Source of the DNA: Pseudomonadota bacterium
GTDB taxonomy: Bacteria; Pseudomonadota; Gammaproteobacteria; Steroidobacterales; Woeseiaceae
NCBI GenBank assembly: GCA_022572185.1
Contig: JACZWL010000018.1
Span: 1-56,752, forward strand
Direction: 5' to 3'
Length of the DNA: 56,752 bases
A program made the position numbers and the translations under genes. Numbering within the stretch: the first letter of the stretch is position 1; each line of letters opens with the position of its first letter. Of this stretch, positions 1-49,968 are shown piece after piece. Under the pieces are notes generated by a model. The model did not search any database. It saw nothing but the letters and a program-made list of their open reading frames with translations, and was not told the origin of the DNA.

Positions 1-1031
1 GACAAACCGCTTTGCTTGCCGAGTACGATACGACGCAGCGCCGAAACGATATCGGCGGAGTAAGGTTCGATTGCTTCGGGAATGTGGAACTGGTTCGCAA
101 CGGCGCCGCTTTCCCGCGTAAACAGATTTTCACCGACCACCGGACGCCAGCCATCGACGCGATAGTTCCCTGCATCTTGCACCAGCGCAGAAACTTTTCG
201 TGCCTGCGACAGATCGAGTTCGACAGGTACGTCATATAAGCACGATAAGGCAAGCGCCACCTCACATATGTCCGAGTTGCCGGCTCGTTCACCGATGCCA
301 TTGATAGTGCCCTGTATCCAGTCGGCACCACCACGCACCGCCGCAATAGCCAGCGCAGTACCGAGACCGAAATCATTGTGGCCATGGAAGTGCAGCGGTA
401 TATCCGGGCCAATCCACCGACGCACGGTTTGTATCAATTTCTCGACGGCTTCCGGCGCGCAGGCACCGATGGTGTCGACAACGGCTACTTCTGCTGCGCC
501 GGTTTCTATGGCGCGTCCATAAACTTCCTGCAAGTAGCCCAGGTCACTGCGCGTGCTGTCGACAGGGAAAAAGAGGACCCGCATATCTTTGTCAACGGCA
601 TGCTTGATCGCCTCCGTTAAACGCTGCAGTACGATCTCGCGATCAAAGCCGTATGCTTTCATCTTCACTTCGCTTGTAGAGATTTCAATCAGCGTTTGCT
701 TGATGCCGAGTTCGATCAGCGCATCAAGATCGCCTTTCACAGCACGGGAAAACCCCCATATTTCGGAGTCCAGCCCGGCCTCAACGATGCGTTTGACTGC
801 CTGGGAATCCGCTTCCGACACGCGCGGGAATCCCGCCTCGATCCTGCCGACGCCGAGATCCGCAAGGCCGCATGCAATATTGAATTTCTCGTCCGGATTG
901 AATACGACGCCGACAGCCTGCTCACCGTCTCGCAAGGTCGTGTCATAAAACTTCACGGGCTTGTCATGATCGAAGCCCTTCCTCACTTCCTCGAGTTCGT
1001 TCAGTTCGCTGGTCCAGATGTTTTTCTGCAC
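1..1031 (-). CDS. DRE-TIM metallolyase (homocitrate/isopropylmalate synthase-like), 3' end beyond window
   Basis: A continuous minus-strand frame of about 343 residues runs off the left edge. It was read from the bases because it has no stop in the window. FYDTTLRDGEQ at residues 28-38, the HFHGHND metal site (His216 and His218) and GIGERAGN near residue 250 identify the Claisen-condensing DRE-TIM family (homocitrate, isopropylmalate and citramalate synthases), with HMG-CoA lyase more distant. I chose the GTG start because GGAAGG lies 7 bases upstream and the frame is closed just before it by the stop of the neighbouring cyclase gene. It is the last visible gene of the permease-led operon. 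It could join a 2-oxo acid to acetyl-CoA or run a retro-aldol cleavage of a pathway product. The substrate cannot be read from the sequence. The family is certain; homocitrate, isopropylmalate or citramalate specificity is not. Confidence 0.85.
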   Translation of the reverse strand, partial: MQKNIWTSELNELEEVRKGFDHDKPVKFYDTTLRDGEQAVGVVFNPDEKFNIACGLADLGVGRIEAGFPRVSEADSQAVKRIVEAGLDSEIWGFSRAVKGDLDALIELGIKQTLIEISTSEVKMKAYGFDREIVLQRLTEAIKHAVDKDMRVLFFPVDSTRSDLGYLQEVYGRAIETGAAEVAVVDTIGACAPEAVEKLIQTVRRWIGPDIPLHFHGHNDFGLGTALAIAAVRGGADWIQGTINGIGERAGNSDICEVALALSCLYDVPVELDLSQARKVSALVQDAGNYRVDGWRPVVGENLFTRESGAVANQFHIPEAIEPYSADIVSALRRIVLGKQSGL

Positions 1032-1055
1032 TGTTTTGCCTTCCAATGTGTCAGT

Positions 1056-1865
1056 TCATGCGATGGCGATGGGTCGAATCAACGATGCCTCACCACCTTT
1101 GATTTTCAACGGCAATACGATCACCGTGAAAGCGTACTGCTGATCGGCTGCCAGACTTTCCAGGTTCAGGCTTTTCATCACATATATGCCATTCTCGATC
1201 AAAAGCACGCGGTGGGCATCAAAAAGATCGGGCACGCCGATCGATAAATTGTCAGTGCCCACAAGCTTCGGTTTTTTTGCCGCGAGCCAGCGTACCGCTT
1301 CAGGCGAAAGGCCCGCCCACTTGTGCAGGTAGGTGTCACCGTCAGTTTCGAAGTAGCTGCCGAATCCGGTGCGAACGATGGCACAGTCGCCTTGCTTTAA
1401 TTCGGTGCCCTGCCTGTCGGCCGCAGCCTCGAGATCTTCAACCGTGATGGAATATTTTTCCGGCAATACATCCAGGCCTTTGAGGGCCGCAACATCAAAC
1501 ATGACCGCACGCAAGACGAGCGGTGGCACATCTTCCATGCTGTGCAAGGGTTCGGGAAGATCAACAAATCCAGTGCCGCGCTGATACGGCGTTATATCGA
1601 TACCCTGCACTTTCAGATCCTGCGACATATGCACCGGTGCATCGAAATGGGTGCCGGCATGCATCGAGGTAATCAGCATCCCTATGGCATGCGAAAAGCC
1701 CGGCTCGATCTTGCCGAGGTCTTTGAGCACATGCTCGTGGTAGTCGAACATAAAATACTGATACGGCGGATCAAAGGGATGAACCGGCATGCCGTTCCAG
1801 TAGCACTGGCCGAGGTCGTAGACACGGGCGCCTGCAATCAGATCATGTAGTACTTCCTGGCCCAC
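1056..1865 (-). CDS. Cyclase-family metal-dependent hydrolase (kynurenine formamidase/isatin hydrolase type)
   Basis: This 269-residue protein has the cyclase-family metal motif HxGTHxDxPxH (His69, His73, Asp75, His79). Characterised relatives are kynurenine formamidase, isatin hydrolase and metal-dependent polyketide-type cyclases. They hydrolyse amides, including cyclic amides. The GTG start at 1865 has GAGG just upstream and sits 12 bases after the M20 stop. An in-frame ATG at 1913 would overlap the M20 gene by 37 bases and adds basic residues outside the conserved domain, so I rejected it. In the operon it lies between the M20 amidohydrolase and the DRE-TIM lyase, so a ring-amide or N-acyl hydrolysis step is likely. 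Isatin hydrolase is a tempting call because indole-monooxygenase-like genes occur elsewhere in the window, but motifs alone do not separate the subfamilies. Confidence 0.83.
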   Translation of the reverse strand: MGQEVLHDLIAGARVYDLGQCYWNGMPVHPFDPPYQYFMFDYHEHVLKDLGKIEPGFSHAIGMLITSMHAGTHFDAPVHMSQDLKVQGIDITPYQRGTGFVDLPEPLHSMEDVPPLVLRAVMFDVAALKGLDVLPEKYSITVEDLEAAADRQGTELKQGDCAIVRTGFGSYFETDGDTYLHKWAGLSPEAVRWLAAKKPKLVGTDNLSIGVPDLFDAHRVLLIENGIYVMKSLNLESLAADQQYAFTVIVLPLKIKGGEASLIRPIAIA

Positions 1866-1876
1866 AGACAACCTCG

Positions 1877-3151
1877 CTATTTTTCTGCGACTCCGCAGCA
1901 AGTGAGAATGCACTCGATATACACTTTGATGATGTCCAGCATATCGCCGATATGCACCGCTTCACCCTGATGGGTATCGAAGCCGCCGCCACCGCTACGA
2001 ATACGTCCGGCGGATCCATAGTTTACCGTAACAATGCCGTAACGATTCATGTGCGCCGCGTCGCTGTACCAGATTTCGTTGCCAAACTCCGGCGGCTTGC
2101 CCAGTTGTTCAGTGTGCGCGGCCACGATCATCTGAATCAACTCGTGGTCGTCAGGGATCGACGTACCCGGTGCGGAGACGTAAATATCCACCGTTGTACC
2201 CTCGAGCGAGGCGTGCTCTTTCTCGAGACCGCGAATCAGTTCCCGCACCTCCCGATAAACCTCAATCGGCAATACATCGGGCGGCGTACGCACATCCATG
2301 TAGATACTGCAGGCCTCCGGTGTCCTTGCGCCACGCCAGGGCCATCCGCCCTCAATCGCGGCGATGTTCACCTTCGGCTGTGTGCCACCGAATTCGTTGC
2401 GCTTCATGTAGCCTGGAATCCAGTCGTTGAGCGCATCCAGTATCAGGCTCGAATTACTGACCGAGTTTTGCTGATACTCGGACCAGGCGGTATGAATAAG
2501 CATGCCGGGTACCGTGATTTTGAACCAGCTCGTTCCGCAGTGCCGCGGGATCACCATCATGTTGGTCGGCTCGCCGAGTATGCAGTAGTCGGCGACCGCG
2601 CCGTGCGTAATGGCGTACTTGGTGCCGGGGCCGTAGCCCTGGTACATCCTGCCCTCGAACTCATTGACCGGTGCTTTTTCGATTTCACCGGCAACGCCGG
2701 CGATCACGACGTTGCCGGCGATCTCGATGCCGGCAGCCCTGATCGACTCACAGGCGAGCGTGTAGGTGGCAAGCGCACTTTTCATATTGAAAGTACCCAT
2801 GCCGTAAATCCACTCATCGTCCACGACATTGCCTTCACATCGATAGCCCAGACCGCGGTGAGCCTGCTCCGGGCCAAACGATGTATCGAGATGACCGTTA
2901 AACATGAGGGTCTTGCCGCCGCCGGCACCTTCCCATAATCCGATGGCGTTATAACGCTCGTCTCCGATCGGCTGCAAGCTCGAGCGAAAGCCCGCGCCTT
3001 GCAGCACTGCATGGAATTCCCGGGCCATATCGCCCTCGAATCCGGTCGGACTGGGGACGTTGACGAGCTGCACGACAAGATCGACGAGACGCTTGCGGTC
3101 GATCTTGTCGACGGCTTTTTTTACCAGTGCTTGATCTACGTTATTAGCCAT
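1877..3151 (-). CDS. M20/ArgE-DapE family amidohydrolase (bridging Asp replaced by Asn)
   Basis: This 424-residue protein has the M20 metallopeptidase/deacylase layout. FNGHLDT gives His87 and Asp89, GEIE has Glu156 and Glu158, LGEPT has Glu194, and a C-terminal SDAAH gives the last histidine. The dimerisation/lid domain lies around residues 205-330. Such enzymes remove N-acyl groups or cleave dipeptide-like amides in the cytoplasm. Two departures stand out: the metal-bridging aspartate of the GxGxxDMK motif is Asn122 (GMGTFNMKS), and the usual adjacent Glu-Glu pair is split as E-I-E. The gene starts 32 bases after the FAH gene and belongs to the same operon. The role is probably deacylation or amide hydrolysis of a ring-opened intermediate. 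The altered metal site makes ordinary dinuclear zinc chemistry uncertain. Confidence 0.85.
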   Translation of the reverse strand: MANNVDQALVKKAVDKIDRKRLVDLVVQLVNVPSPTGFEGDMAREFHAVLQGAGFRSSLQPIGDERYNAIGLWEGAGGGKTLMFNGHLDTSFGPEQAHRGLGYRCEGNVVDDEWIYGMGTFNMKSALATYTLACESIRAAGIEIAGNVVIAGVAGEIEKAPVNEFEGRMYQGYGPGTKYAITHGAVADYCILGEPTNMMVIPRHCGTSWFKITVPGMLIHTAWSEYQQNSVSNSSLILDALNDWIPGYMKRNEFGGTQPKVNIAAIEGGWPWRGARTPEACSIYMDVRTPPDVLPIEVYREVRELIRGLEKEHASLEGTTVDIYVSAPGTSIPDDHELIQMIVAAHTEQLGKPPEFGNEIWYSDAAHMNRYGIVTVNYGSAGRIRSGGGGFDTHQGEAVHIGDMLDIIKVYIECILTCCGVAEK

Positions 3152-3183
3152 CTTGGCGTTACCTTGTTTAATCGGTTAGTGGC

Positions 3184-4116
3184 TCAGTCAGCGGCGACGA
3201 TATGCACGGTGAGGGTGCCAAGCTCTGCCACGGTGGCATCGACCCGGTCACCGGCCTTGAGCCAGACCGGGGCCTTCATTCCGGCCGCGACACCCGGCGG
3301 GCTGCCGCTGGTAATGATATCGCCGGGCTCAAGCGTGGTGTTAGACCACCAGGAAACCAGCTCGGCCGTCTTGTAATGCATATCGCCGGTATTCGCATCC
3401 TGGCGCAACTCATCATTAACCCGCAGTTTCATATCCAGATTATGCGGGTCTGACAACTCGTCGGTGGTAACGAGATGCGGGCCGAACGGGCATGACCCGT
3501 CAAAGCTCTTGCCCAGCAGAATCACCTTGTTGGCGTGCTCACGGGCCTGTATGTCGCGGGCCGACAGATCGTTGAATACGGTGTAGCCCGCCACATAGTC
3601 CATGGCATCAGTCGGAGACACGTGAAATGCTTTTTTGCCGATGATAATGCCGATCTCGATTTCGTAATCCAGTTGCTTGGTGAAACGCGGAATCGCCACA
3701 CTGGATCCCGACGCCGTGACGGAGGATGGCGCCTCCAGAAACCCGGTCGGATGTTCGAAATGAAAATCACCCCAGTTATGAGACTGCCACTCCGGCTGCT
3801 GCCAGTCCGTCAATTCCTTGAGATGACTGTCGAAATTGCAAGCTGTGTGGATGATCTTGCCGGGACGGGGCACGGGTGCGTCGAGCTCGATGCTGTCGGC
3901 TGCATAGACATGCGCTTTCCCTGCGACATCCTGGCCGAGTTCGTCTAACAGCGTCTTTGCCTTCGCGAACCCCGCTTCGCCCATATCCAGAAACGCCAGC
4001 ATGTTATCGGGCAGCGCGCCCTTGCTAAGCGCGTGCAGATCCACGTAATGCCCTTCTACGAAAGCGCCGATAGTCGACCTGGCGCCATCATTTATCCTGA
4101 AAGTTGCAAGTCGCAT
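3184..4116 (-). CDS. Fumarylacetoacetate hydrolase (FAH) family protein
   Basis: This 310-residue protein has the C-terminal FAH fold. The metal ligands ExE (Glu152, Glu154) lie in YEIEIGIIIG and Asp183 in FNDLSARD, and the C-terminal GDIITSGSPPGV loop is typical. Relatives hydrolyse acylpyruvates, isomerise or decarboxylate oxo-diacids, or cleave fumarylpyruvate-type products. Its start lies 3 bases after the stop of the LLM gene, so the two are almost certainly co-transcribed. In ring-cleavage pathways FAH enzymes act on the 2,4-dioxo acids left after opening, which suits a late step here. Nothing in the sequence fixes the substrate. Confidence 0.9.
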   Translation of the reverse strand: MRLATFRINDGARSTIGAFVEGHYVDLHALSKGALPDNMLAFLDMGEAGFAKAKTLLDELGQDVAGKAHVYAADSIELDAPVPRPGKIIHTACNFDSHLKELTDWQQPEWQSHNWGDFHFEHPTGFLEAPSSVTASGSSVAIPRFTKQLDYEIEIGIIIGKKAFHVSPTDAMDYVAGYTVFNDLSARDIQAREHANKVILLGKSFDGSCPFGPHLVTTDELSDPHNLDMKLRVNDELRQDANTGDMHYKTAELVSWWSNTTLEPGDIITSGSPPGVAAGMKAPVWLKAGDRVDATVAELGTLTVHIVAAD

Positions 4117-4119
4117 GAC

Positions 4120-5202
4120 TCAGGCTCCCGGCTTCAGTTTCGGCAGGACTTCCTCGCCGAACAAGCGAATCGTTTCGAGGTTGTCTGCTTCGCTGGCGCC
4201 AGCAACTTCGAGCAGCGGTGTATTCAGGCCTGCGTCCACTAATTCCTGAGTAATTTCCAGACATTCCTCAGGTGTTCCCGAGATAACCGTGAACGCTCGC
4301 TGCATTTCGTCGCTGACAAGATGCGTAACATTGTCTTCGGTGCCGGCTGCGATCGCCTCACGAAACGGTGCCCAGCCCTCGTCGGGCAGGCCTGATGTGC
4401 TGAGAATGACATCATTCTTGATATTGCGGAGCTTATTGATGATGTAAGTTCCAACGTAGCTGCGGGTCGCATCCTTGGCCTTGGCCCCGTCTTTCGAGCA
4501 TGCTGTGAGAATAACGCCGCCGACCGGGAAGTCAGATGGTAATTCGCGGCCAACGGCCGCCGCTCCCGCCCAGCAATTTTCCCTCGCATAACGGGTAAAT
4601 CCGGGTGATGTCAGTCCCGGCAGCAGCAGTCCATCAGAGATCTTGCCGGCCATCTTCTGCATAAAAGGTCCGGTCGCCCCGATGTAAATTGGAATTTTCG
4701 TGCGCAGCCCCCGGCCTTTGCGATCGATAGCCGGCATGTCACATTTGAACAACTCGCCGTCGTATGCAAATGCCTCTCCGCTTGCGATGCCCCGGATAAT
4801 ATCTACCGCCTCACGGTGAGTTTTCACCGGCGTATACTTTTTCATGTCAAGGTCGAGGTATTCGGTGCCAACCTTGCCCGCACCGAGACCCATGATGAAG
4901 CGCCCGCCGGACAGTTCGTCCATTGCATTCGATTCCGATGCCTGAACCGTTGGGTGCCGCATGTATGGCGACGTGATCCCCAGGCCAATTGGAATCTTGC
5001 TGGTGGCCATTGCGGCTGCGGCCAGTGTCGTAAAGCAACCGCGCGACTCGTGACCGTACTTACGAAACCAGTGATAGGCCTCCGCGATCCAAAATCCGCC
5101 GCTGCAGCCCGATTCCTCGGTTTGTCTCGCATAGGCCTGAATAGCGGAGATGGGTTCGTAGGATTTGAATATGACTCCCACATTTGCTGGTGTTCCGCTC
5201 AT
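4120..5202 (-). CDS. LLM-class (luciferase-like) flavin/F420-dependent oxidoreductase 1
   Basis: This 360-residue TIM-barrel protein is of the bacterial-luciferase-like class. Recognisable parts are GFWIAEAYHW near the N-terminus, the non-prolyl cis-peptide region IGLGITSPYMRHP, and the GLGAGKVGTEYL strand. The style, including the DELSGGRFIMGLG segment, resembles methylenetetrahydromethanopterin reductase and F420-dependent members more than FMN monooxygenases. An AGGAG sequence precedes the ATG. In this operon it could open a hydroxylated N-heterocycle, as RutA does with uracil using FMN, or reduce an intermediate with F420. fbiC and cofC about 42 kb away make F420 plausible. The cofactor cannot be settled by eye. 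Confidence 0.87.
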   Translation of the reverse strand: MSGTPANVGVIFKSYEPISAIQAYARQTEESGCSGGFWIAEAYHWFRKYGHESRGCFTTLAAAAMATSKIPIGLGITSPYMRHPTVQASESNAMDELSGGRFIMGLGAGKVGTEYLDLDMKKYTPVKTHREAVDIIRGIASGEAFAYDGELFKCDMPAIDRKGRGLRTKIPIYIGATGPFMQKMAGKISDGLLLPGLTSPGFTRYARENCWAGAAAVGRELPSDFPVGGVILTACSKDGAKAKDATRSYVGTYIINKLRNIKNDVILSTSGLPDEGWAPFREAIAAGTEDNVTHLVSDEMQRAFTVISGTPEECLEITQELVDAGLNTPLLEVAGASEADNLETIRLFGEEVLPKLKPGA

Positions 5203-5245
5203 TTATCTTTCTCCTGATAAATCTTGTGCAATTATTTCAGCCGTC

Positions 5246-6400
5246 CTACAGACTGGCTTCGCCGCCCCGGTAGTAAGCTACCGGCACACCTGACAAGGCT
5301 TCTCCGCCGTTTTTGCCGACACGGAATGTCTCCTGAAAATACAAACAGGCCTGGCGATCTTCCGTCATCACATGTGGATGCATGGAGCACACCATGTTCT
5401 CCGGCAGCTCAAACTCCGTGCCCTCCCCGATTCTCGGGAACTCGATCATCGTCATGCCAATCGAATGGCCGGATACATGGCCCAGACGCCAGCCTTTCCC
5501 TTCGAACGGCGTGATGCATTTCCTGTGCACTTCGTGGGCGCTGGAGCCGGCTTTCAGATTTTCCTTCACGATGGCATGAAACTCTTCATAGGCATCCATG
5601 AGCCGCTGCGTTTCCGCGCTGATACCGCCTGGCGCGATCATGCGTGAAAATTCCACCCAATGACCGCCAAGGCCGGCAACTTCAAGACCATATAACAAGC
5701 CATCTGAATCCTGGACCTTTCGATTCGCGTCAGGAAACACCATCTGCGGCAGCAGTGAGCCGTCCGGTCCAACCAGAACCATATCCATGGTATTGCGCGC
5801 CGTTCCCAGGCTTGCAAAGGTTTGTTCCGCAACGCCCATGAGCTCCGCTTCCGTTTTGCCGGCTTTGTACGCCTGGACAACCGCTAATACGCCCGCCTTG
5901 TTGACATCCATGGAGTGACGTACCGAGGCGATTTCTTCCTCGCTTTTCTGAGCCCTCGAGTAATCGAATGCTTCGTCAAAGTCGACGATGTCGAGATCAG
6001 CATCGACCAGTGCCCGATAGTCGCGGACCGGCATGATGAAATTCAGGCCGTAGACGCCGACCCGTTTATGGCCGCGATTCTTGCATTCATCGGCCATCCA
6101 TTCGCCGCAGCTCACGGTCTTGATTTGCTTGTCGATAAACGTCCGGGTGTGATCTCCAACCCAGGTCGCCTCCTTCGGGTACACGGCCGTTGCTTCGCCG
6201 TCCATCGGCACCAGCACATAGGCGTAGCGATGCAAAATATGGAAGCCGCACATGTAGCGAACTGCGCCTTCAAATCCCGTGTACTCACTGCCACTTATAA
6301 TAAGTGCATCGAGGTCTGCTTTCGCCATTGCTTCTCGCGTGTTGCGATAACGCCGGTCGATTTCCTGCTGGCTGGGTTGAAACTGTTCTATGGTCGTCAT
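5246..6400 (-). CDS. M24 'pita-bread' family hydrolase (creatinase/Xaa-Pro peptidase-like)
   Basis: This 384-residue protein has the N-terminal creatinase domain (about 1-150) and the C-terminal pita-bread domain. GHSIGM and IEFPRIGEG correspond to the conserved His and Glu regions. The metal motif where aminopeptidase P has two aspartates reads LEVAGLGGHWVEFSR, with Glu in place of both Asp. The final ligand region is FQETFRV. Creatinase and ectoine hydrolase are non-peptidase members of this fold that hydrolyse small amidine or guanidine compounds. This protein sits in a catabolic operon with a permease and an M20 deacylase, so that kind of activity is likelier than peptide turnover. The pairing with M20 recalls ectoine degradation, but the other genes do not fit it. 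Confidence 0.82.
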   Translation of the reverse strand: MTTIEQFQPSQQEIDRRYRNTREAMAKADLDALIISGSEYTGFEGAVRYMCGFHILHRYAYVLVPMDGEATAVYPKEATWVGDHTRTFIDKQIKTVSCGEWMADECKNRGHKRVGVYGLNFIMPVRDYRALVDADLDIVDFDEAFDYSRAQKSEEEIASVRHSMDVNKAGVLAVVQAYKAGKTEAELMGVAEQTFASLGTARNTMDMVLVGPDGSLLPQMVFPDANRKVQDSDGLLYGLEVAGLGGHWVEFSRMIAPGGISAETQRLMDAYEEFHAIVKENLKAGSSAHEVHRKCITPFEGKGWRLGHVSGHSIGMTMIEFPRIGEGTEFELPENMVCSMHPHVMTEDRQACLYFQETFRVGKNGGEALSGVPVAYYRGGEASL

Positions 6401-6416
6401 TGCCCTACCCTTCTTA

Positions 6417-7337
6417 TCAATCGTCGCGCGTCCATGAATGTTCCAGGCCCTCGATCAGGGCCCAAATCGCCTGATTCAATGGCGTCGGAACACCGGTTTG
6501 CTCGCCGAATTTCACGATGCCACCATTCAGCGCGGCCACTTCCGTGGGGCGCCGTGCGAGTGCGTCCTGCAGCATGCTTGCTTTGTGATGGTAGGCTACC
6601 TCGCGGGCATGATCGACGAGTTTGTCGGGGTCGCTGTCCAGGGTGATGCCCATTGCATCCGCTACAGCCACGCCTTCGGCCACCAGGCCTGAAATCACTT
6701 TTCTTACGGCCGGCTGATCACAGGCTACACCATGAGGCAGGCCAGTCAGTGCGCCGATAGGATTGGTTGCGGCATTGAATATCAGCTTGGTCCACTGGGC
6801 GCCGCGAGAGTCCTCCATGGCCAGTGTCTCAATGCCCGATTCAGTCAGGCGTTCGGCCAGCAATTCGATTTCGGCCATCGTGGCGGGCTTGGGTTCGAAT
6901 GGCCCCAGCCACGTTTTTCCACCGGTATCCTGCTCGACGTGTCCGGGTTCGACGACGTGGCCGGCCGGAAAGGTCGTGCCACGAATCACGCGGGGTACAT
7001 ATTCGGCGATGATTTCCTCGTTGCCCACTCCGTTTTGCACGGTGCACACAGCGGCATCTTTAAAAACGCTCGCAGTGCTCTCGATAGCCGCACGCGTATG
7101 CAAGGATTTTGTCGCGACGATGCCAAACTCGCATGCCGGTATGTCGCTGGGATTCGACGTCGCTTTGGGATAAGAATGCACGTCGGACTCGCCGGACAGC
7201 CGCAGCCCGTTCGCGTTGATCGCGTCTATATGATCCCGATCCACATCGAAAGCCCAGACCTCCACGTCTTCAAGCTTCGCCAAATGGGCCGCAAATAAAC
7301 TGCCGATTGCGCCGCAACCGACGACACAGACTTTCAT
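6417..7337 (-). CDS. PanE/ApbA-family (2-dehydropantoate 2-reductase-like) oxidoreductase, copy 2
   Basis: This 306-residue protein has an N-terminal Rossmann motif (VVGCGAIGSLFAAHLA) and the PanE C-terminal helical domain (WTKLIFNAATNPIGALT). Family members reduce 2-oxo groups of ketopantoate or related compounds with NAD(P)H. Its ATG overlaps the TGA of copy 1 (ATGA), so translation is probably coupled. The two copies are clearly paralogous along their length but divergent. Neither stands with panB or panC, so pantothenate synthesis is not supported. In this setting they more likely oxidise or reduce hydroxy/oxo acids of the degraded compound. Confidence 0.85.
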   Translation of the reverse strand: MKVCVVGCGAIGSLFAAHLAKLEDVEVWAFDVDRDHIDAINANGLRLSGESDVHSYPKATSNPSDIPACEFGIVATKSLHTRAAIESTASVFKDAAVCTVQNGVGNEEIIAEYVPRVIRGTTFPAGHVVEPGHVEQDTGGKTWLGPFEPKPATMAEIELLAERLTESGIETLAMEDSRGAQWTKLIFNAATNPIGALTGLPHGVACDQPAVRKVISGLVAEGVAVADAMGITLDSDPDKLVDHAREVAYHHKASMLQDALARRPTEVAALNGGIVKFGEQTGVPTPLNQAIWALIEGLEHSWTRDD

Positions 7338-8308
7338 GTTCTTCTCCCCTCATCTTCCTGTTGCCAGCTATGTTCAATTCCTTTAATGAGTCCGTAAAGG
7401 GCCTCATGAATCGGTGCCGGTATGCCGAGCTTGTTCGCTTCCCGAACGATTGCACCCGTCAACCAGTCGACCTCCGTGAGGCGTTTCGACCGGACGTCGT
7501 CCAGCATCGAAAACACATGGGCATACTCATCGTCGCCGGTCTGCCCATGACGCACCGCTTTGACGTTCATTTCCCACGGGTCCTGATAAAGTTCGATGCC
7601 CTGAGCCGCCGCCACCCGTTTGCCCTCATCCATCATGTCGAATACCAGTTGACCCAGGTCTGCGGCTTTCTCCCTTTTCGCAAAGTCCTTGATATGCGGC
7701 AGGTTCGTAGCGGCACCGATGCTGTTGACGACTGAGTTGAATACCAGCTTCGACCATTGCGCCGGGCGCACGTCATCGAAAGCCTTCGCCTTGAGTCCGG
7801 AGCGCTTGATGAGCTCTGCTACCTGTTGCGTCATCTCTCTACTTGCGCCACGCCCTGCCCAGGGTCCCAGCCAGGTCTCTGTATCCAGCTCATACTCGAC
7901 ATGAACATCGGAGTGACGCACGCCGCTCATAAATGTGATCGCCGAAATGATCGGCCAGTCGCCGTATTGTGCAACCACATCCTCACAGCCCAGGCCATTC
8001 TGCACGGTCATTACGGTGGCGTCCGGAAAGTATCCCGACAGACGTTGCGCAGCCGCTTCAACGGCCGTCGCTTTGGTCGCGATGATGATTAACTCAACGT
8101 CCCCGAGCTGCTCCGGGTCCATGCTGGCCTGAATCGGTGTTTGTAAATCAGACTTGCCGCTTACCTTCAAACCCTCGCGATTGAGCCGATCCTCGTGCTC
8201 CTGACGCCGCACCAACACCCTGGCGCTGACCTGCGATCCCAGGTGGCCCGCGAACAGACTACCGATCGCGCCGGCGCCAACCACACACACCGACTTGATC
8301 GGCTTCAT
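7334..8308 (-). CDS. PanE/ApbA-family (2-dehydropantoate 2-reductase-like) oxidoreductase, copy 1
   Basis: This 324-residue protein begins MKPIKS and has the Rossmann motif VVGAGAIGSLFAGHLG followed by the ketopantoate-reductase C-terminal domain (WSKLVFNSVVNSIGAAT). I chose the ATG at 8308 because it overlaps the permease TGA as ATGA and sits directly before the Rossmann strand. An upstream in-frame start at 8377 would lie inside the permease gene. It is the second gene of the permease-led operon and is followed by a paralogue. The pair may act as a heteromer or on two successive intermediates. The cofactor is probably NADP(H); the substrate is unknown. Confidence 0.85.
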   Translation of the reverse strand: MKPIKSVCVVGAGAIGSLFAGHLGSQVSARVLVRRQEHEDRLNREGLKVSGKSDLQTPIQASMDPEQLGDVELIIIATKATAVEAAAQRLSGYFPDATVMTVQNGLGCEDVVAQYGDWPIISAITFMSGVRHSDVHVEYELDTETWLGPWAGRGASREMTQQVAELIKRSGLKAKAFDDVRPAQWSKLVFNSVVNSIGAATNLPHIKDFAKREKAADLGQLVFDMMDEGKRVAAAQGIELYQDPWEMNVKAVRHGQTGDDEYAHVFSMLDDVRSKRLTEVDWLTGAIVREANKLGIPAPIHEALYGLIKGIEHSWQQEDEGRRT

Positions 8309-9723
8309 GATCGAGAAACCGCGGCAACGGGTCGGAACACCGTCAGGCGCAGCGCCGGATAAACAATGGCAACGCAAACCACCGAGGTGAAGACCTCAAT
8401 GGGCTGATAAGGCCCCAGCAACCAATGAGCGCAAAAAACAGCGAAGAGGATCGCAATGACTCCCGCCCAGTTGACCGCGTCGGGTTCATCGCTCGTGGAC
8501 CCGAGTCGTCGTCCTACAAAGTAGTAATCCGCAATGATGGTGGCGGCCAGCGCACTGAGAAGAACGCCCATCAGCTTGATCCACCCTTCGACAAAATGCA
8601 GGATTTCTCCGTATAACAATGCCAACGCGATGACATTGGCGAGAATCACGAATGTGAGACGTCCGGGTCGCCAGCGAAACAACGCATCAAACAGATTCGC
8701 AAGACAAAGTGATGAGCTGTAGTTGTTCAGGACCTGGGCTTTCGCCTGGGCCAGTATCATGAGCAGGAACCCGATGGCGCCACCGAACACCATGAAAGTC
8801 GCGGCAATGCTGTCGGGGCTTTTCAGTACCTGCTGTCGCGCAGCCTCCGCCGGCATTCCTGCCATGTCGGCAAAATAAGCGGCCATGGAAGGCGCCGCCG
8901 CTTTCATGATGATCCCGCCGATAATCATCATCAGCAGGGATTGGACAAAAATGGCGATCATGGCGGCTGCCGCGACGTGGCCCGTCGATTTTCCGAAGCG
9001 ACCGAAATCTGCGGTATTCAGCGCCAGGGCGCATGCCGGCCCGACCAGCAAGTTCAATGCAAATATGAATTTATCGGTGCTGGACCGAATGCCCATATTG
9101 ACCAGCGTGCCCGCATCGAGTTGGCTTTCGAACAGCAAACCGTCCGAAAAACTTCCATCGCCTCCGGTCAGAACAACAAACATCATCCAGGCGAGCACGA
9201 GCAGGAAGCCGATAATCATCAGCGAGGAGGTTCGCGTAACCACGCTGAAACCAAATGCCGTGAGCAGGATCCAGGCCAGCGTCATTGAGCCGTAAATCAG
9301 AATACGCACGCTCCAGCCGTCATCCATCTCGAAGAAAAAAAGGAAGCCGCGATACAAGAGGCCATTTTCAACGGCCAGGAAACCGATGATCAGAAATCCA
9401 AATATGAGTGACGCGAGCGCCGAGCCGCGAATGCCCAGCCCGTATCTGCGTGTGATCAGCGTATTCGATAAGCCGGTCTCGACGGTTATTCGTGCCAGAG
9501 CCCAGCCGAGCGCGCTGCCAATGGAGAACGAAATGATGCCTGCCAACAGTGCAATCTTGACGCCGGCCACAAAGCAAACGACGGCACCGAAGAACATGAT
9601 GACCAGCGTGGTTATGAGGCCGACCGTGTTCCAGGTAATCTTCAGCCAGGTCTCGCGTTCGCCATCGGGCACACGCTCGAGGGCGTGATCCTCCATTCTG
9701 CTGCTTAGATTCGATCCAGCCAT
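8305..9723 (-). CDS. NCS1-family permease (cytosine/purine/allantoin-type)
   Basis: This 472-residue, highly hydrophobic protein has about twelve predicted membrane segments. It has the N-terminal pattern of nucleobase:cation symporter-1 proteins (ITVETGLSNTLITRRYGLG, with a helix-breaking segment). Relatives carry cytosine, uracil, hydantoin, allantoin, pyridoxine or thiamine. It is the first gene of the minus-strand operon and starts 220 bases from the divergent molybdenum hydroxylase operon. That makes it the probable importer of the compound the operon degrades, and the best single hint that the substrate is a small N-heterocycle or ureide. The ATG at 9723 has only a weak ribosome site; an ATG nine codons further in is an alternative. 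Confidence 0.85.
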   Translation of the reverse strand: MAGSNLSSRMEDHALERVPDGERETWLKITWNTVGLITTLVIMFFGAVVCFVAGVKIALLAGIISFSIGSALGWALARITVETGLSNTLITRRYGLGIRGSALASLIFGFLIIGFLAVENGLLYRGFLFFFEMDDGWSVRILIYGSMTLAWILLTAFGFSVVTRTSSLMIIGFLLVLAWMMFVVLTGGDGSFSDGLLFESQLDAGTLVNMGIRSSTDKFIFALNLLVGPACALALNTADFGRFGKSTGHVAAAAMIAIFVQSLLMMIIGGIIMKAAAPSMAAYFADMAGMPAEAARQQVLKSPDSIAATFMVFGGAIGFLLMILAQAKAQVLNNYSSSLCLANLFDALFRWRPGRLTFVILANVIALALLYGEILHFVEGWIKLMGVLLSALAATIIADYYFVGRRLGSTSDEPDAVNWAGVIAILFAVFCAHWLLGPYQPIEVFTSVVCVAIVYPALRLTVFRPVAAVSRS

Positions 9724-9943
9724 ACAGGAAATGCTAACTCAGTCACCAGCCAACGACTCGTCGTATCGAGCAGACACTTTGGCATTATGGACTGCTATGC
9801 AGAATTTCGGCCGCTTCGACGGTCACTGTTTTTTGGTTTCGCGCACCGGGAACGATGCGTTATTTCAACGTCATTATTATCCACTATTTTGACAGCATGG
9901 TTATGTGCTATTTTACGCTGCTCATATAAAGTGGGGAAAAGTC
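9724..9943. promoter_or_regulatory. Divergent control region of permease and molybdenum hydroxylase operons
   Basis: These 220 bases separate two divergent operons and must hold both promoters. The segment from about 9860 is AT-rich compared with its surroundings. A TTGACA lies at 9889-9894, but the best matching TATTTT (9909-9914) is only 14 bases away, so I do not assign exact boxes. A TATAAA lies at 9924-9929. GTGGGGAAA just before 9944 is the ribosome site of the FAD subunit. I see no convincing operator dyad. Confidence 0.5.
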
Positions 9944-10837
9944 ATGTACCCGGCACCGTTCGATTACCATCGCGCAAATTCAGTAGACGAGGCAATTGGC
10001 ATGTTGTCCGATATCGGCGAGGGCGCGCGGGTAATGGCGGGCGGCCAGTCACTCCTCCCTGTGCTGAAAATGCGCTTTGACGAGCTGACGGACATCGTTG
10101 ACATCGGCCGGATTCCCGACCTGAATCAAATTGAAGAGAATGGCAATGGCGTGAGCATCGGGGCCCTCACGACTCACAGTTGCATCGCTGCTTCAGCTCT
10201 TGCTGGCTCCGTACCCATCCTGCTGGACTGTGCCAGCGGCATTGCCGATGTTCAGGTACGCAGCCGCGGGACCATTGGCGGCTCGGTTGCCTCCGGTGAC
10301 CCGAGTTGCGACTGGCCCGCTTTGTTGCACACGCTGGACGCCGAGATTCAATGCCAGGGTCCGAATGGCACCCGAACTCTGGACATTAACGGCTTCGTCG
10401 AGGACCTCTACCAGACCGCACTGCAACCTAGCGAGATTATTACCGGCATCCGTTTCAAGAGGCCGGGCGCGGGCAGCGGCGGCGCTTATTGCGCCTTCAA
10501 GCGTTGTGCGCCGGCCTATCCGACGACATCAGTCGGGGTGCAATTGACAATTACCGATGGACAGGTCGAATCGGCCCGGGTGGCCCTGGGATCATCCGGC
10601 CTGACTCCCATACGTGCGCAGCAGGCGGAAGCGGAACTCGAGGGTCAGAGTCTGGGCGCCGGGCAAATCGGCAGGGCCGCAGATGCGGCTGTCGCAGCTT
10701 CAGATCCCGTCGATGATCAACGTGGATCGGCTGACTTCAAACGCCAGCTGATTGCTCATCTGACCAAACGAGCTATTGGTATTGCGGAACGGCGTGCTTC
10801 CGGAGAACAGGTAGTCAACAGTCACGAGTATTACTGA
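9944..10837 (+). CDS. Molybdenum hydroxylase FAD-binding (medium) subunit, CoxM-like
   Basis: This 297-residue protein has the FAD_binding_5 domain: [14 protein letters not shown] near residues 33-46, then [17 protein letters not shown] for the second FAD contact, and the C-terminal CODH FAD domain. It passes electrons from the iron-sulfur subunit to an acceptor in xanthine-oxidase-family hydroxylases. The ATG at 9944 follows GGGGAA, and the [15 protein letters not shown] opening is the usual start of this family; an ATG at 9905 lacks these. One base separates it from the small subunit, so the operon is tightly coupled. The subunit type says hydroxylase, not which substrate. Confidence 0.93.
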
Positions 10838-10838
10838 A

Positions 10839-11321
10839 ATGAGCGAGCGTATCGGCATAACTGTTACTGTCAATGGCACCCGTTACGAGCGGGAAGTGGA
10901 ACCGCGATTATTGCTGGTGCAATTGATTCGCGAAGAGCTGCGTCTGACCGGCACACACATAGGCTGCGATACGAGCTACTGCGGCGCCTGCACCATTTTG
11001 CTGGACGGTGAACCGGTCAAGTCTTGCACCATGCTTGCCGTGCAGGCCGATGGCGGCGAGGTTCTGACGGTGGAAGGTCTTGAAAAGGACGGGAAACTGC
11101 ACCCCTTGCAGGAAGCCTTCTCCGAACACCACGGACTGCAATGCGGCTACTGCACACCGGGCATGTTGATGTCGGCGTACTATTTGCTGGAGCAGAACCC
11201 GGATCCCAGCAACGCTGAGATTCGTAAGGGTATCCAGGGCAATCTGTGTCGCTGCACCGGCTATAAAAATATTTTTGCGGCCATTTCCGACGCAGCGGCG
11301 AAGATGCAAACAGGATCGTAG
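10839..11321 (+). CDS. Molybdenum hydroxylase [2Fe-2S] (small) subunit, CoxS-like
   Basis: This 160-residue protein carries both iron-sulfur motifs of the family. The plant-ferredoxin-type cluster uses Cys43, Cys48, Cys51 and Cys63. The second cluster uses Cys102, Cys105, Cys137 and Cys139 (QCGYCTPGM and NLCRCTGY). It relays electrons from the molybdopterin centre to FAD. It starts one base after the FAD subunit stop, and the CoxG-like gene follows immediately. All eight cysteines are intact, so it is probably functional. The length is normal for the family. Confidence 0.96.
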
Positions 11322-11879
11322 GTGGCCATAGAATTCAATGGCGAGTTTACGGTTGCGACACCGCGTGAAGATGCGTACGCCGTATTGTCTGAGACGCAAA
11401 AGTTTGCGCCCCTGCTGCCCAGCTATCAATCGCATGAGCTCCAGGAAGATGGATCGGCCGTCGTCAAGATAAAAGTGGGTGTCGGCAAGATTCGCGGGAC
11501 GGCGAAGGTGAATCTGAAGCTCGAAGAAAGCGAGGCACCAATACGTGCGAGGTATGTAGGTAAGGGTACGGTGATGGGCGGCGTCTTCAACCTCATTGCC
11601 ACATTCGAGTTGGAGGATGCCGGGCAAGGCCAGACGCGCGTCAAATGGCACGGTGACCTGATAATGTTCGGCAAGCTGGTGTCTTTGGCGGGCGGAATGA
11701 TTAAACCGATTGCCAAGCGGGACATCGGCCGTATGGTCGAGGCCATTCAGGCAGCCCTTTCCGGCGAAGCCGGGGTGGTGGCAGTACCCGAGCCTCGTGT
11801 ATCTCCAGTGGCAAAGCTCCTGGCACTATGGAAGAAACTGGTATCTCTCGTTCGTGGATTGTTGAGGAAACAAAAATGA
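11322..11879 (+). CDS. CoxG-like SRPBCC-family protein
   Basis: This 185-residue protein begins with GTG directly after the TAG of the 2Fe-2S subunit. It has the SRPBCC/CoxG fold pattern: MEFNGEFTV-like first strand, AVLSETQKFAPLLPS helix, then beta strands and a long C-terminal helix near GKLVSLAGGMIKP. CoxG recruits CO dehydrogenase to the membrane, and homologues are common in molybdenum hydroxylase operons. The basic, leucine-rich tail (about residues 165-185) may contact the membrane. Its 3' end overlaps the large-subunit start as ATGA. A membrane-anchoring role is inferred from the family. Confidence 0.83.
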   Translation: MAIEFNGEFTVATPREDAYAVLSETQKFAPLLPSYQSHELQEDGSAVVKIKVGVGKIRGTAKVNLKLEESEAPIRARYVGKGTVMGGVFNLIATFELEDAGQGQTRVKWHGDLIMFGKLVSLAGGMIKPIAKRDIGRMVEAIQAALSGEAGVVAVPEPRVSPVAKLLALWKKLVSLVRGLLRKQK

Positions 11880-14293
11880 GTTGGGTTGGAAAGTCTCTGC
11901 GACGCAAAGAAGACGATCGTTTAGTGCGCGGCAACGGTTTGTTCGCTGACGACGAACAAATCGAGGGCATGCTGCATTTGTATATTTTGCGCTCTCCTTA
12001 CGCACACGCGCGGATTCGTGGAATCGATACCGCCGCGGCAGAGTCACTGGCCGGGGTTGCCTGCGTCCTGACCGGCGCCGATATCAAAGAGCAATGCGAT
12101 CCGTACATGCAGCTCGGGCCGGAGCCCTGCGACAAGATCATCGATTTGCCGCTTGCCACGGACAAAGTCGTATTTCAGGGTGAGCCCGTGGCAGCCGTTG
12201 CCGCGGAAACCGCCGCTCTTGCCATGGATGCCGGTCAACTCATCGAAGTGGACTACGAGATGCTGGATGCGGTCGTTGATCCCGAACAAGCGCTCGAAGA
12301 CAAAATTGTCTTACACGAAGCCGCCGGCACGAATCGTGTCTGGCATAGTGTCTTCGAATATGGCGATGTGGACAAGGCGTTCGAGGATGCGGCCCATGTC
12401 GTGAAGATCGAGCGCATGCATTTCCACCGCTTCGCCAGCACGCCCGTGGAAAACAACGCGTGCGTAGCGGAGTGGACCCGTCAGGGAGATGTAGACTTTC
12501 TTTGCAACAACTCGTTTATTGGTTTTGCCGTGCAATTACTTGCGCCGGGCTTGCGCCTGCCTATGGAGAAAATCAGGGCCCGTACGTACGACATCGGCGG
12601 CAGTTTTGGTGTCAAGATCTGGAACTACGTGTACATGGCACTGGCTGCGCTTGCATCCAGAAAATGTGACGGCCGAAAAGTGAAGTGGTCGGAGACGCGT
12701 ACTGAGCACTTGCTGGCATCAGGTCATGGCAACGAACGCACTTTTCTGGATACCGAAGTTGCGCTGGACAAAGACGGCGTCATTACCGGAATCAGGTCAC
12801 GACATATTGATGATTGCGGCGCGTATACGCGCTACGAGCCATTGGGCTGTGTGATCTGGGCACAAGTGCTTCCGGCGACCTACGGGGTGCGAAACTTCCG
12901 TATCGACTTTACACAGACAGTGACCAATAAGTGCCCTGTCGTACCGAACCGCGGTTATTCCCGTATGCAGCATCTATGGTTCATGGAACGTGTCGTCGAT
13001 ATCTGCGCACATGAGTTGGGCATTCCCGCCGATGAGATGCGTCTGAAAAACTATGTGCGCGAATTCCCGTACGAGACGCCCAACGGCTGTGTCTACGACT
13101 CGGGCGATTACCCGATGATGCTCGAAAAGGCCAAGGAACTGATCGGTTGGGATGAATGGAAGAAAAAGCAGGCTGAGGCGCGGAAAGAAGGCCGCTGGCT
13201 CGGCATCGGAATAGGTACGACACTCGATTCGGGAACCAATAATTTCGGTCAGGCCCAGATAATGAATCCCTACCTGCCGTTCTCGGGCAATTCAGAGGTC
13301 TGCGTCATTCGTCTCGACTTCGACGGATCGGTCATCGTCACCCTGGGTACGGGGCCGTCCGGCCAGGGCCATGAAACCGCTACCTCCCAGGTGGTTGCCG
13401 ACGAACTCAACATAGATCCTGCGATGGTTACCGTACGCACGGGATTTGATTCAGCCTGGAACACATTTTCCGGTCATTCCGGTACCTACGCGAGCCAGTT
13501 TGCCGTAACCGGCCTTTCAGCGGTGCACGGTGCCTGCCAGAAACTTAAAGTTGAAATGCGGCAGCTCGCCTCGTTCATGTTGGAAGCCGATGAGGACGAC
13601 CTGGAATTCGGTGTGGGCGATGAGGGACCGCAACTCGCGGTCAAAGGCACGGACAAAGCGATCAACTATTGGTTCATGAGTAATGTGGTCAATAACAATA
13701 ACGCATTACTCGGCGGGAACCTTGCGGACGTTACCTTGAATGTACGTCACGTCTACCGGCCACCGTTCGAGGCACCCGACACCGAAAAGAAATTCGGCAA
13801 TCTGACGCTGACCTATGCCGCGCAGCTGCACATCGCCGTAATAGAGATTGACAAGAATACCTGTAGGCCAAACATCCTCGCATACGCTGCCGTGGATGAT
13901 TGTGGAAGCGTAATCAATCCACAGATTGCGGCCGGACAGGTTCATGGCGCTACCGCGCACGGCATCGGGGCTGCGTTGCTGGAGACATTTAACTACGACG
14001 AGACCGGCAATTTGCTGACCGCAACATTCAGCGACTATTGCCCGATTACATCGATGAATATTCCTGATATTCAGTACGGCCACATCGAGTCACCCTCCCC
14101 GTTCAGCTACAACGGGGCGAAAGGCATGGGCGAAGGAGGCGGCGCGCCGTTACACACCATATCGGCCGCGATACAGGATGCCCTGCATAGTGAAGGCATC
14201 ATCGTCAATGAGTCCCATCACTCGGCGCCGAAGGTGTTCGAACGCGTCAATGCACCCAACCGGGAGAAAGTAGTCAGCGTCGAATCCCGATAG
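11876..14293 (+). CDS. Molybdenum hydroxylase molybdopterin (large) subunit, CoxL-like
   Basis: This 805-residue protein is the catalytic subunit of a xanthine-oxidase-family hydroxylase. SLRRKEDDRLVRGNG opens the aldehyde oxidase/XDH domain. GAKGMGEGG carries the catalytic glutamate (Glu753). The active-site loop reads PNRGYSR where CO dehydrogenase has AYRCSFR and other family members often have AYRGAGR, so it is not a form I CO dehydrogenase. I used the ATG at 11876 (ATGA overlap with CoxG) rather than one 48 bases upstream inside coxG. No coxDEF or XdhC-like maturation genes are present in the window. The substrate is probably a heteroaromatic or aldehyde taken up by the divergent permease. 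Confidence 0.92.
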   Translation: MSWVGKSLRRKEDDRLVRGNGLFADDEQIEGMLHLYILRSPYAHARIRGIDTAAAESLAGVACVLTGADIKEQCDPYMQLGPEPCDKIIDLPLATDKVVFQGEPVAAVAAETAALAMDAGQLIEVDYEMLDAVVDPEQALEDKIVLHEAAGTNRVWHSVFEYGDVDKAFEDAAHVVKIERMHFHRFASTPVENNACVAEWTRQGDVDFLCNNSFIGFAVQLLAPGLRLPMEKIRARTYDIGGSFGVKIWNYVYMALAALASRKCDGRKVKWSETRTEHLLASGHGNERTFLDTEVALDKDGVITGIRSRHIDDCGAYTRYEPLGCVIWAQVLPATYGVRNFRIDFTQTVTNKCPVVPNRGYSRMQHLWFMERVVDICAHELGIPADEMRLKNYVREFPYETPNGCVYDSGDYPMMLEKAKELIGWDEWKKKQAEARKEGRWLGIGIGTTLDSGTNNFGQAQIMNPYLPFSGNSEVCVIRLDFDGSVIVTLGTGPSGQGHETATSQVVADELNIDPAMVTVRTGFDSAWNTFSGHSGTYASQFAVTGLSAVHGACQKLKVEMRQLASFMLEADEDDLEFGVGDEGPQLAVKGTDKAINYWFMSNVVNNNNALLGGNLADVTLNVRHVYRPPFEAPDTEKKFGNLTLTYAAQLHIAVIEIDKNTCRPNILAYAAVDDCGSVINPQIAAGQVHGATAHGIGAALLETFNYDETGNLLTATFSDYCPITSMNIPDIQYGHIESPSPFSYNGAKGMGEGGGAPLHTISAAIQDALHSEGIIVNESHHSAPKVFERVNAPNREKVVSVESR

Positions 14294-14325
14294 CCAGGAA
14301 TCCGAGAGACTCTCAGGCATTCATC

Positions 14326-14595
14326 ATGAGTTTTGTCGAGGTCCGCGACCACGCCATGTGGGTCAAAGATATTCACGGCAACGAGTCACTGCAAGAGCGG
14401 ATTCGCGAAATGAAAGAAGGCGAGCTGATTGCACTCAAAGTCAATGGCGTTCGCGGCATGTGGGAAAGAATGAAGGACAGCGGAGATGCCCACGCCACGC
14501 CAGGCATCAAGGCCTTGGGCGAGGCCGGATCGAAATGGCATGAGTTGCGCAGCGAACGGCAAGGCGGTATCACGACCGTTGAAACCTGCGACTAA
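14326..14595 (+). CDS. Small conserved-looking protein of unknown function
   Basis: This 89-residue soluble, charged protein (MSFVEVRDHAMWVKD start) lies 32 bases after the molybdopterin subunit on the same strand. It is mixed alpha/beta in character, with no cysteine pair, signal peptide or membrane segment. Its single cysteine is near the C-terminus. The phrase EGELIALKVNGVRGMWERM looks like a folded core rather than random translation. Position suggests it is the last gene of the hydroxylase operon. I do not recognise a family, and no function is assigned. Confidence 0.6.
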   Translation: MSFVEVRDHAMWVKDIHGNESLQERIREMKEGELIALKVNGVRGMWERMKDSGDAHATPGIKALGEAGSKWHELRSERQGGITTVETCD

Positions 14596-18458: not shown

Positions 18459-18475
18459 TTCCTTATCTCCACGAT

Positions 18476-23927: not shown

Positions 23928-23946
23928 GACAGACCCCTGGGGACAC

Positions 23947-24735: not shown

Positions 24736-24752
24736 GGTGTTCTCCTTCTCAA

Positions 24753-25973: not shown

Positions 25974-26216
25974 TCTCTGCCCCTGTCCGATCTTGTTGGT
26001 AGCGACTAGCTGGTGGCCGCCCGTTTTTCTTGTTTCGACGTCAGGACGATCCGTAAAATAGCGTAGCACAGCAAACCGTCGAAAGCTGCAATCGCGCGGC
26101 GCGAACCAGGACGATCAATTACACTCTGGTAGCGACGACTCACAAAAACAATAGAAGCCGCCGGATGGCTGGTTCGGGCCGGTATGCGCTATCCGGATGC
26201 GGCAGAGGAGAACACA
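25974..26216. promoter_or_regulatory. Divergent control region of StyA-like operon and nitrilase-fold gene
   Basis: These 243 bases sit between divergent starts and should hold both promoters. Two short direct repeats are visible: TGGTAGCGAC near 25998 and 26130, and CAGGACGATC near 26042 and 26108. GAGGAG lies six bases before the ATG at 26217. I could not assign reliable -35/-10 boxes. Confidence 0.4.
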
Positions 26217-27275: not shown

Positions 27276-27314
27276 ATGAAGCCCATCGATGATTGAGTAG
27301 CGGTTGAAGCGAGC

Positions 27315-49704: not shown

Positions 49705-49968
49705 GGCGTTTCGCTCTGGCAACAACAAAGAATCTGCGGCAATACTGCCTTAGTCTGCCGCGAATCTCCTTGTTTTTTCAAGAATCTGTCTTGACTGGCT
49801 AGCGAAGCGATCGCGGCTATGGGGCAACGATATACGGCAGCATCGGCAAGCATTAAGCCTGTGCATGAAGACCTGGCCATCGTAGCCGAAAAGTGGATAT
49901 TTCTCGCGCCGGAACGCCTAACATCCAAAACGGTGCTAGCCAGAATCGCCCCGACGCGCTGACGGCAT

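Follow-up and report, generated by a model that had tools for sequence, protein, structure and literature searches.

The sequence examined here, hereafter called the window, is the complete contig JACZWL010000018.1 (56,752 nucleotides, read on the forward strand), one of 99 contigs in a metagenome-assembled genome (MAG) of a gammaproteobacterium in the family Woeseiaceae (GCA_022572185.1). Its left end carries two divergent operons, one encoding an NCS1 permease, a luciferase-like monooxygenase (LLM)-class protein and seven further enzymes, and the other a molybdenum (Mo) hydroxylase of the CoxMSGL type. We find that the two operons and their associated genes form one conserved system, a conclusion we hold with near certainty, and that this gene set co-occurs with synthesis of the cofactor F420, a rare electron carrier, in three proteobacterial classes. 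The reading we favor, with somewhat better than even confidence, is that the system is a horizontally mobile catabolic module for the F420-dependent reductive degradation of a nitrogen (N) heteroaromatic compound.

The minus-strand operon runs from the NCS1 permease (8305..9723; PF02133, 2e-10) through two PanE-like 2-oxoacid reductases (PanE1, 7334..8308, and PanE2, 6417..7337; PF02558 and PF08546 in each), an M24/creatinase-fold hydrolase (5246..6400; PF00557, PF01321), the LLM-class protein, which is an F420-type hydride transferase resembling Mer without its Glu6 (4120..5202; TIGR03555, 178 bits), and a FAH-family C-C hydrolase or decarboxylase (3184..4116; PF01557, 1e-65; closest PDB entry 8sky, HpcE). 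It continues with an M20 hydrolase closest to 5-nitroanthranilic acid aminohydrolase (NaaA; 1877..3151; PDB 5k8m), a cyclase-family metal hydrolase that is a candidate cyclic-amide hydrolase (CYC; 1056..1913 at most; PF04199, 2e-27), and an HMGL-like DRE-TIM enzyme of the isopropylmalate synthase/homocitrate synthase kind (3..1046; PF00682, 3e-64). The HMGL gene is truncated at position 3 because the window ends at a contig end, and the operon may continue beyond it, while the start of CYC is uncertain (GTG or TTG at 1913, 1901, 1871 or 1865). On the plus strand lie coxM, the FAD subunit of the Mo-hydroxylase (9944..10837; PF00941, 2e-44, and PF03450), coxS, the 2Fe-2S subunit (10839..11321; PF01799, 9e-35, and PF00111), coxG, a maturation or membrane-anchor protein (11322..11879; PF06240, 6e-21), and coxL, the molybdenum subunit (11876..14293; PF20256, PF02738, PF01315). 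All nine minus-strand proteins (9/9) exceed their Pfam family cut-offs, as do CoxM, CoxS, CoxG and CoxL, and each gene named in an earlier, sequence-only reading of this DNA is present where that reading had placed it. The overlapping ATGA junctions that it described are found at NCS1/PanE1, PanE1/PanE2 and coxG/coxL (4 bases each), and the intergenic gaps are similarly short: 9 bases for HMGL/cyclase, 32 for M20/FAH, 3 for FAH/LLM, 43 for LLM/M24 and 16 for M24/PanE2.

With the LLM protein as query against 84,980 species genomes, we recovered 53 stretches comprising 52 distinct loci (best-segment identity 63-86%), many of them cut by contig ends. The carriers are gamma-, beta- and alphaproteobacteria together with one planctomycete. 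The genes of the set recur together in these loci, a gene-neighbourhood search being one of the checks that the sequence-only reading had proposed: FAH is present in 48/52, M20 in 44, HMGL in 35, PanE1 in 23, PanE2 in 22, M24 in 20 and NCS1 in 10. Three layouts can be distinguished. Type A, that of the window, has the order NCS1-PanE1-PanE2-M24-LLM-FAH-M20-CYC-HMGL with either coxLGSM or dmsA divergent; L021, for instance, has coxLGSM divergent and the whole set at 63-88% identity, seven loci have dmsA instead (L027-L029, L031, L033-L035), and the NCS1 or CYC label is absent in some. Type B has the order LLM-FAH-M20-FbiC-(CYC or PuuE-like)-HMGL-PanE1-PanE2-M24, and two of its loci, L059 and L061, have coxMSGL divergent. 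Type C has the order FAH-M20-(PuuE-like)-HMGL-LLM with PanE and M24 divergent (e.g., L057, L060, L071).

Genome-wide counts also tie the two operons to each other. For these, we compared 50 LLM-bearing genomes (those of L054 and L072 were left out) with a background set of 397 other genomes of the phylum. A CoxL orthologue (E<=1e-180) is found in 43/50 LLM-bearing genomes, with some of the matches being fragments, versus 0/397 background genomes, and a PanE2 orthologue (E<=1e-60) is found in 46/50, one of which is a fragment with stops. The LLM itself (E<=1e-50) is found in 0/397. The LLM and CoxL operons are adjacent in the window, L021-L023, L026, L059 and L061, and the earlier proposal that the two divergent operons act as one system is thus borne out. 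Among relatives of the same family and order, 0/39 have an LLM match above 36% identity; this patchy distribution suggests horizontal transfer. A plasmid search with the LLM returned only matches below 60% identity, the 15 listed ones lying at 27-31%.

The LLM belongs to the F420 type but is not Mer. Its best profile is TIGR03555 (Mer) at 178.5 bits, far from the NCBIfam equivalog cut-off of 348.7 bits, followed by other F420-type models, each likewise below its own cut-off. Against PDB sequences, Mer is matched at E=1e-40 and the next family at 8e-16. A predicted model (mean predicted local distance difference test score, pLDDT, of 88.7) also ranks Mer first, with VIA-align Z scores of 37.5-39.6 for Mer, 33.0 for Adf, 30-32 for FGD and 24.9-25.7 for RutA, and the first eight Foldseek ranks are all Mer. 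In jMer, Glu6 is needed for catalysis, and a Gln variant retains 0.4% of kcat (PMC11094777). The equivalent position in the alignment is Ile11 in the LLM of the window, with Ile in 29/31 relatives and Leu in 2/31. Likewise, jMer Asp96, which lies at the pterin, aligns with Lys110, a nearly invariant residue in the LLM family that would suit a carboxylated substrate. We consider it very probable that the LLM uses F420.

The genes for making F420 accompany the set. In the window, they lie at some distance from the two operons, as FbiC/CofGH, the FO synthase (46603..49017, minus strand; CofH model 499.6 bits, over its cut-off, with Pfam radical SAM and CofH_C), and CofC, the guanylyltransferase of F420 synthesis (49027..49728, minus strand; TIGR03552, 124 bits with a cut-off of 105). 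The sequence-only reading had confined the system to positions 1-14595; its genes there stand, but it left out the F420 genes at 46603-49728 and drew no link to them. Elsewhere the linkage is tighter, with an FbiC homologue in 22/52 loci, directly after M20 in 21 of those 22; L051 has a full FbiC copy farther on, and L069, which has just a weaker match, was left uncounted. Individual proteins scoring over their cut-offs include FbiC of L061 (1116 bits vs a cut-off of 1018) and the NADPH:F420 reductase NpdG of L026 (221 vs 149.8). Among the 50 LLM-bearing genomes, CofH exceeds its cut-off in 44, CofE in 45 and NpdG in 44, while CofH does so in only 3/397 background genomes. The remainder includes CofH fragments (G455, G465), a CofE fragment (G438), NpdG matches below cut-off (G437, G471, G477, G481) and one genome with no CofH match, NpdG over cut-off and a CofE fragment (G446). 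CofE-CofD-CofC adjoin coxMSGL in contigs of Azonexus, Afipia and Hyphomicrobiales, and in L106, CofC, CofD, CofE and NpdG are placed between coxMSGL and M24-PanE2. In the closest relative of the window, CofD is paired with CofE and CofC with FbiC; between these two pairs lies a pair of genes resembling 2-oxoacid:ferredoxin oxidoreductase (L097, 5890-8558). In another genome (G442), a protein resembling a nonribosomal peptide synthetase (NRPS), with AMP-binding, methyltransferase and carrier domains, is encoded a few kb from FbiC and CofC (L099, 8894-11827).

The closest PDB chains to CoxL are a CoxL, quinoline 2-oxidoreductase and 6-hydroxypseudooxynicotine dehydrogenase, and the protein falls well short of the CO dehydrogenase equivalog TIGR02416 (400 vs 991 bits). 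In one locus (L118, 4618-10576), coxMSGL is followed by genes for a MoxR-type ATPase, an unmatched 386-aa protein, an XdhC-like factor, a MocA-like cytidylyltransferase fusion and a cysteine desulfurase, to all appearances a group of genes for maturing the Mo-hydroxylase. A second hydroxylase of the xanthine-oxidase type, similar to XdhA and 4-hydroxybenzoyl-CoA reductase, is found in the extended cluster (L119, 7902-11633; L121, 1099-4876; L122, 8761-12606), and its large subunit shows ~86% conservation across Azonexus, Afipia and Hyphomicrobiales. The cluster is also accompanied by an A/B/C complex of the dimethyl sulfoxide (DMSO)-reductase family, with FdhD in some loci (L035, 971-5148; L117, 12269-17500), whose closest profile is PhsA, far below cut-off. 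The A subunit, dmsA, is found in 27/51 genomes. As 23 of these 27 also have CoxL, we count the complex as an extra enzyme and reject the idea that dmsABC, together with FdhD, stands in for CoxMSL. Finally, 8 loci have a gene for an acyl-CoA dehydrogenase next to cluster genes. In Pfam it matches only the general family, and from its motifs we take it, unconfirmed, to be a glutaryl-CoA dehydrogenase, the NCBIfam model for which it matches at 201-223 bits vs a cut-off of 470.

The hydrolases of the set bear on how the ring may be opened. The M20 protein aligns with NaaA (5k8m) over its whole length (188 bits across residues 1-419), the next sequence family reaching 46 bits; the amino group that NaaA removes is beta to a carboxylate. 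The relatives of CYC, kynurenine formamidases and isatin hydrolase among them, are weak ones. In other genomes, its place seems to be taken by a PuuE-allantoinase-like protein: the two are present in 13 and 16 of the 52 loci, respectively, and together in 0/52. Counted genome-wide, CYC is found in 18/51 genomes and in 0/19 of those whose fetched loci carry the PuuE-like gene, the latter being counted in the fetched loci. This mutual exclusion is what one would expect if both enzymes catalysed the same hydrolysis, and the occupation of one position by two unrelated hydrolases of cyclic C-N bonds suggests that the ring opened is a cyclic amide. In four loci close to the window (L022, L026, L031, L032), M20 is directly followed by HMGL, neither CYC nor the PuuE-like gene is in the locus, and the genomes have no CYC match; these may represent a third ring-opening variant. 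The relatives of the FAH protein include both hydrolases and decarboxylases. HMGL reaches the cut-off of none of the NCBIfam models listed. The comparison with ectoine degradation (M24 plus M20) made in the sequence-only reading is weakened by these results, as M24 scores 44 bits against the ectoine hydrolase DoeA model NF038259 (cut-off 575) and M20 is closest to NaaA in the PDB.

On this basis, a pathway can be proposed. NCS1, where present, would import an N heteroaromatic, probably a carboxylated one, and the coxMSGL Mo-hydroxylase would hydroxylate the ring next to the nitrogen. The Mer-like LLM would then dearomatise the hydroxylated ring by hydride transfer from F420H2, with FbiC and CofC/D/E making F420 and NpdG presumably re-reducing it. 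CYC, or the PuuE-like protein where it stands in for CYC, would open the resulting cyclic amide, the NaaA-like M20 would deaminate an enamine or an amino acid, setting ammonia free, and the FAH protein would cleave or decarboxylate the chain. The oxo acids left over may be processed further by HMGL, M24 and both PanE-like reductases; the sequence-only reading, too, had placed the PanE-like and DRE-TIM enzymes at this final stage. We infer the sequence of steps and the nature of the substrate as an N heteroaromatic, as well as a reductive logic like that of the route from nicotinate via 6-hydroxynicotinate and tetrahydro-6-oxonicotinate to glutarate. In its more specific form, the proposal describes a horizontally transferred proteobacterial cassette that uses F420H2 to dearomatise a hydroxylated N-heteroaromatic carboxylate reductively and that in its fullest form comprises FO synthase, F420 assembly, NADPH:F420 reductase, the Mo-hydroxylase and Mo-cofactor maturation; we consider the chances of this version evenly balanced. 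Among the candidate substrates considered (nicotinate, picolinate/homarine, the thiamine pyrimidine HMP, purines, pterins and cyclic imides), a pyridine carboxylate is the leading guess, though a rather doubtful one. A literature search on homarine found no pathway paper.

Among the closest known systems is the tetrahydro-6-oxonicotinate (THON) route, which employs a Mo-hydroxylase and ring-opening enzymes; the window, for its part, has a Mo-hydroxylase of the CoxL type. This reductive route from nicotinate to glutarate is reported from aerobic proteobacteria, and in Azorhizobium caulinodans, Bradyrhizobiaceae SG-6C and Eubacterium barkeri a hydroxylated pyridine is likewise reduced and then opened, with glutarate as the end point in A. 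caulinodans (PMC3511419). The putative glutaryl-CoA dehydrogenase gene near the cluster is a further resemblance. It differs in having a 6-hydroxynicotinate reductase and an ABC transporter where the cluster has an F420-type LLM and NCS1, and HMGL, the two PanE proteins, M24, FAH and the NaaA-like M20 go beyond it. The LLM shares with Mer, the F420-dependent methylene-H4MPT reductase, and with the family of luciferase-like hydride transferases (LLHTs) its fold, its F420-type family and its closest sequence, whereas Glu6 and Asp96 are replaced and the gene sits in a catabolic-looking proteobacterial operon. NaaA can be aligned with the M20 protein over the whole length but belongs to a different pathway. 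Actinobacterial picrate degradation occurs in another phylum and with another gene set; no Mo-hydroxylase is known in it. What it has in common with the proposal is the use of F420H2 and an LLHT in the reductive breakdown of an electron-poor aromatic (PMC8498797). Finally, the betaproteobacterium Mycetohabitans rhizoxinica also has fbiC and cofC; there, FO is needed for fungal symbiosis according to a 2024 paper, and the role of FO and 3PG-F420 is host communication rather than degradation (PMC11104420).

Several other explanations were weighed. The sequence-only reading had likened the LLM to RutA, in which case it would be a FMN/O2 monooxygenase opening a pyrimidine-like ring oxidatively, and the F420 genes would be incidental. 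The two do share the LLM barrel (Z ~25), and NCS1 import of an N ring together with amidohydrolases would fit pyrimidine use. However, the LLM is nearest the F420 group, Mer and Adf lie well above RutA in fold, and no RutA profile is present among the 25 listed of the 27 families matching the LLM at E<=1e-3. On this fold ranking and these profiles, we set aside RutA-like oxidative opening, and the presence of F420 genes in 44-45/50 genomes and of FbiC in 22/52 loci leaves it very improbable. Slightly less probable again is that the LLM is a Mer homologue in one-carbon metabolism, reducing methylene-tetrahydropterin: Mer is indeed the closest sequence and fold, but we reject this role on the missing Glu6, which is replaced by Ile or Leu, with Asp96 replaced by Lys110 and a score of 178 against a 349-bit cut-off pointing the same way. 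That the two operons are unrelated neighbors by chance has next to no probability. CoxL is on a different contig from the LLM in a number of genomes, but its distribution across LLM-bearing and background genomes, given above, leads us to reject chance, and the recurrent adjacency of the operons also speaks against it.

The remaining alternatives keep F420 and change its purpose. The module could serve the F420-dependent catabolism of a compound other than an N heteroaromatic, such as an aromatic, alicyclic or terpenoid acid, with the nitrogen genes acting on amides only. HMGL, PanE, FAH and the acyl-CoA dehydrogenase handle carbon acids, and genes for alcohol, aldehyde and FAD-cytochrome enzymes lie nearby in four genomes; nevertheless, NCS1, CYC or the PuuE-like protein, the NaaA-like M20 and the quinoline-oxidoreductase-like CoxL jointly point to C-N chemistry, and we regard this alternative as unlikely, if worth keeping in view. 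Alternatively, the set could be biosynthetic and use an F420-dependent reduction to make a small metabolite, as happens with antibiotics in actinomycetes. LLHT reductases are listed in antibiotic pathways (PMC8498797), and a condensing enzyme of the HMGL type plus reductases could be anabolic; the NRPS-like (A-MT-PCP) protein near FbiC in G442 would suit such a use. Yet the recurring families that could be identified include no assembly-line gene, though many single genes were left unnamed, and the permease, the ring hydrolases and the AraC regulators look catabolic, making a biosynthetic role distinctly improbable. The opening of an N-containing ring, as first proposed from the sequence alone, is still the best reading.

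A number of observations weigh against F420-dependent N-heteroaromatic degradation. The main gap is that HMGL (by homology an acetyl-CoA-type synthase), the two PanE proteins and M24 fit no assigned step of the pathway, and NCS1, the proposed importer, is confined to the 10/52 loci noted above. In the fold comparison, FGD (Z 30-32) is tied with a monooxygenase chain, 2i7g (30.6), with Adf above both. The window's genome holds one further F420-type LLM gene, and F420 may therefore serve other uses in the host. In the window's MAG, rated 96% complete, CofH and CofC are found, but no CofE, CofD or NpdG over cut-off; because the nearest relative has CofD, CofE and CofC, we take these gaps to be missing contigs. 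CoxL was not found in G441, G445, G463, G472, G479, G481 and G484, two of the CoxL matches hold an in-frame TGA, and G441 and G445 (assemblies of 2.3 and 2.0 Mb) also lack CofH, CofE and NpdG matches. Because the genomes compared are related to one another, nominal p-values from Fisher tests overstate significance. Lastly, the planctomycete genome (G481) has LLM and FAH without CofE or CoxL and with CofH below cut-off, so the LLM may have a use there that does not involve F420 or that differs in some other way. On the planctomycete contig (L066, 1-4879), FAH and a PanE-like gene accompany two copies of the LLM gene.

Farther along the window are genes that may be accessory to the module. Two metallo-beta-lactamase (MBL)-fold hydrolases (17550..19417, minus strand) have homologues of 53-69% identity near cluster genes in L051, L105 and L107. 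A CN-hydrolase (amidase/nitrilase; 26184..27275, plus strand; PF00795) has homologues of 68-69% identity near the cluster in L037, L040, L041 and L119, and an aldehyde dehydrogenase (34732..36195, minus strand) has homologues of ~69% in L037, L040 and L041 and of 76% in L119. The latter two lie in a further catabolic block (22920-36195) that also encodes a StyA-like monooxygenase, a flavin reductase, a UbiD decarboxylase, a major facilitator superfamily transporter, an indolepyruvate-decarboxylase-like thiamine diphosphate enzyme and a TonB receptor (the flavin reductase, transporter and receptor were named by eye). Beside this block, at 36484-39526, are a cytochrome c and an FAD-binding protein; homologues of the latter (37-40%) are found near the cluster together with alcohol dehydrogenase, CN-hydrolase and aldehyde dehydrogenase in Afipia, Hyphomicrobiales, Rhodocyclaceae and Azonexus (L101, L102, L113, L119).

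In line with the earlier statement that no known pathway has the whole set, a literature search found no paper on this set of genes, although subscription titles were mostly uncovered and absence is thus not proof; the same search found no catabolic F420 role for Proteobacteria. According to a 2021 review, no F420-using enzyme had been experimentally investigated in bacteria outside Actinobacteria, and the reason why Proteobacteria make F420 is listed there as unanswered (PMC8498797). Structures of an F420 enzyme from Thermomicrobium, a member of the Chloroflexi (PMC8498797), are in the PDB. Reductive degradation of N heterocycles is itself already known, and on our best reading the new part would be F420 as the hydride carrier. 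If true, F420 would gain its first enzymatic and catabolic role in Proteobacteria, the aerobic catabolism of N heterocycles would gain a new branch, and the annotation of such LLM genes as FMN monooxygenases or Mer would be corrected. With this conserved, F420-linked set, the question of proteobacterial F420 can be put to the test using a single enzyme and a range of substrates, and the cluster suggests one reason why some proteobacteria make this cofactor.

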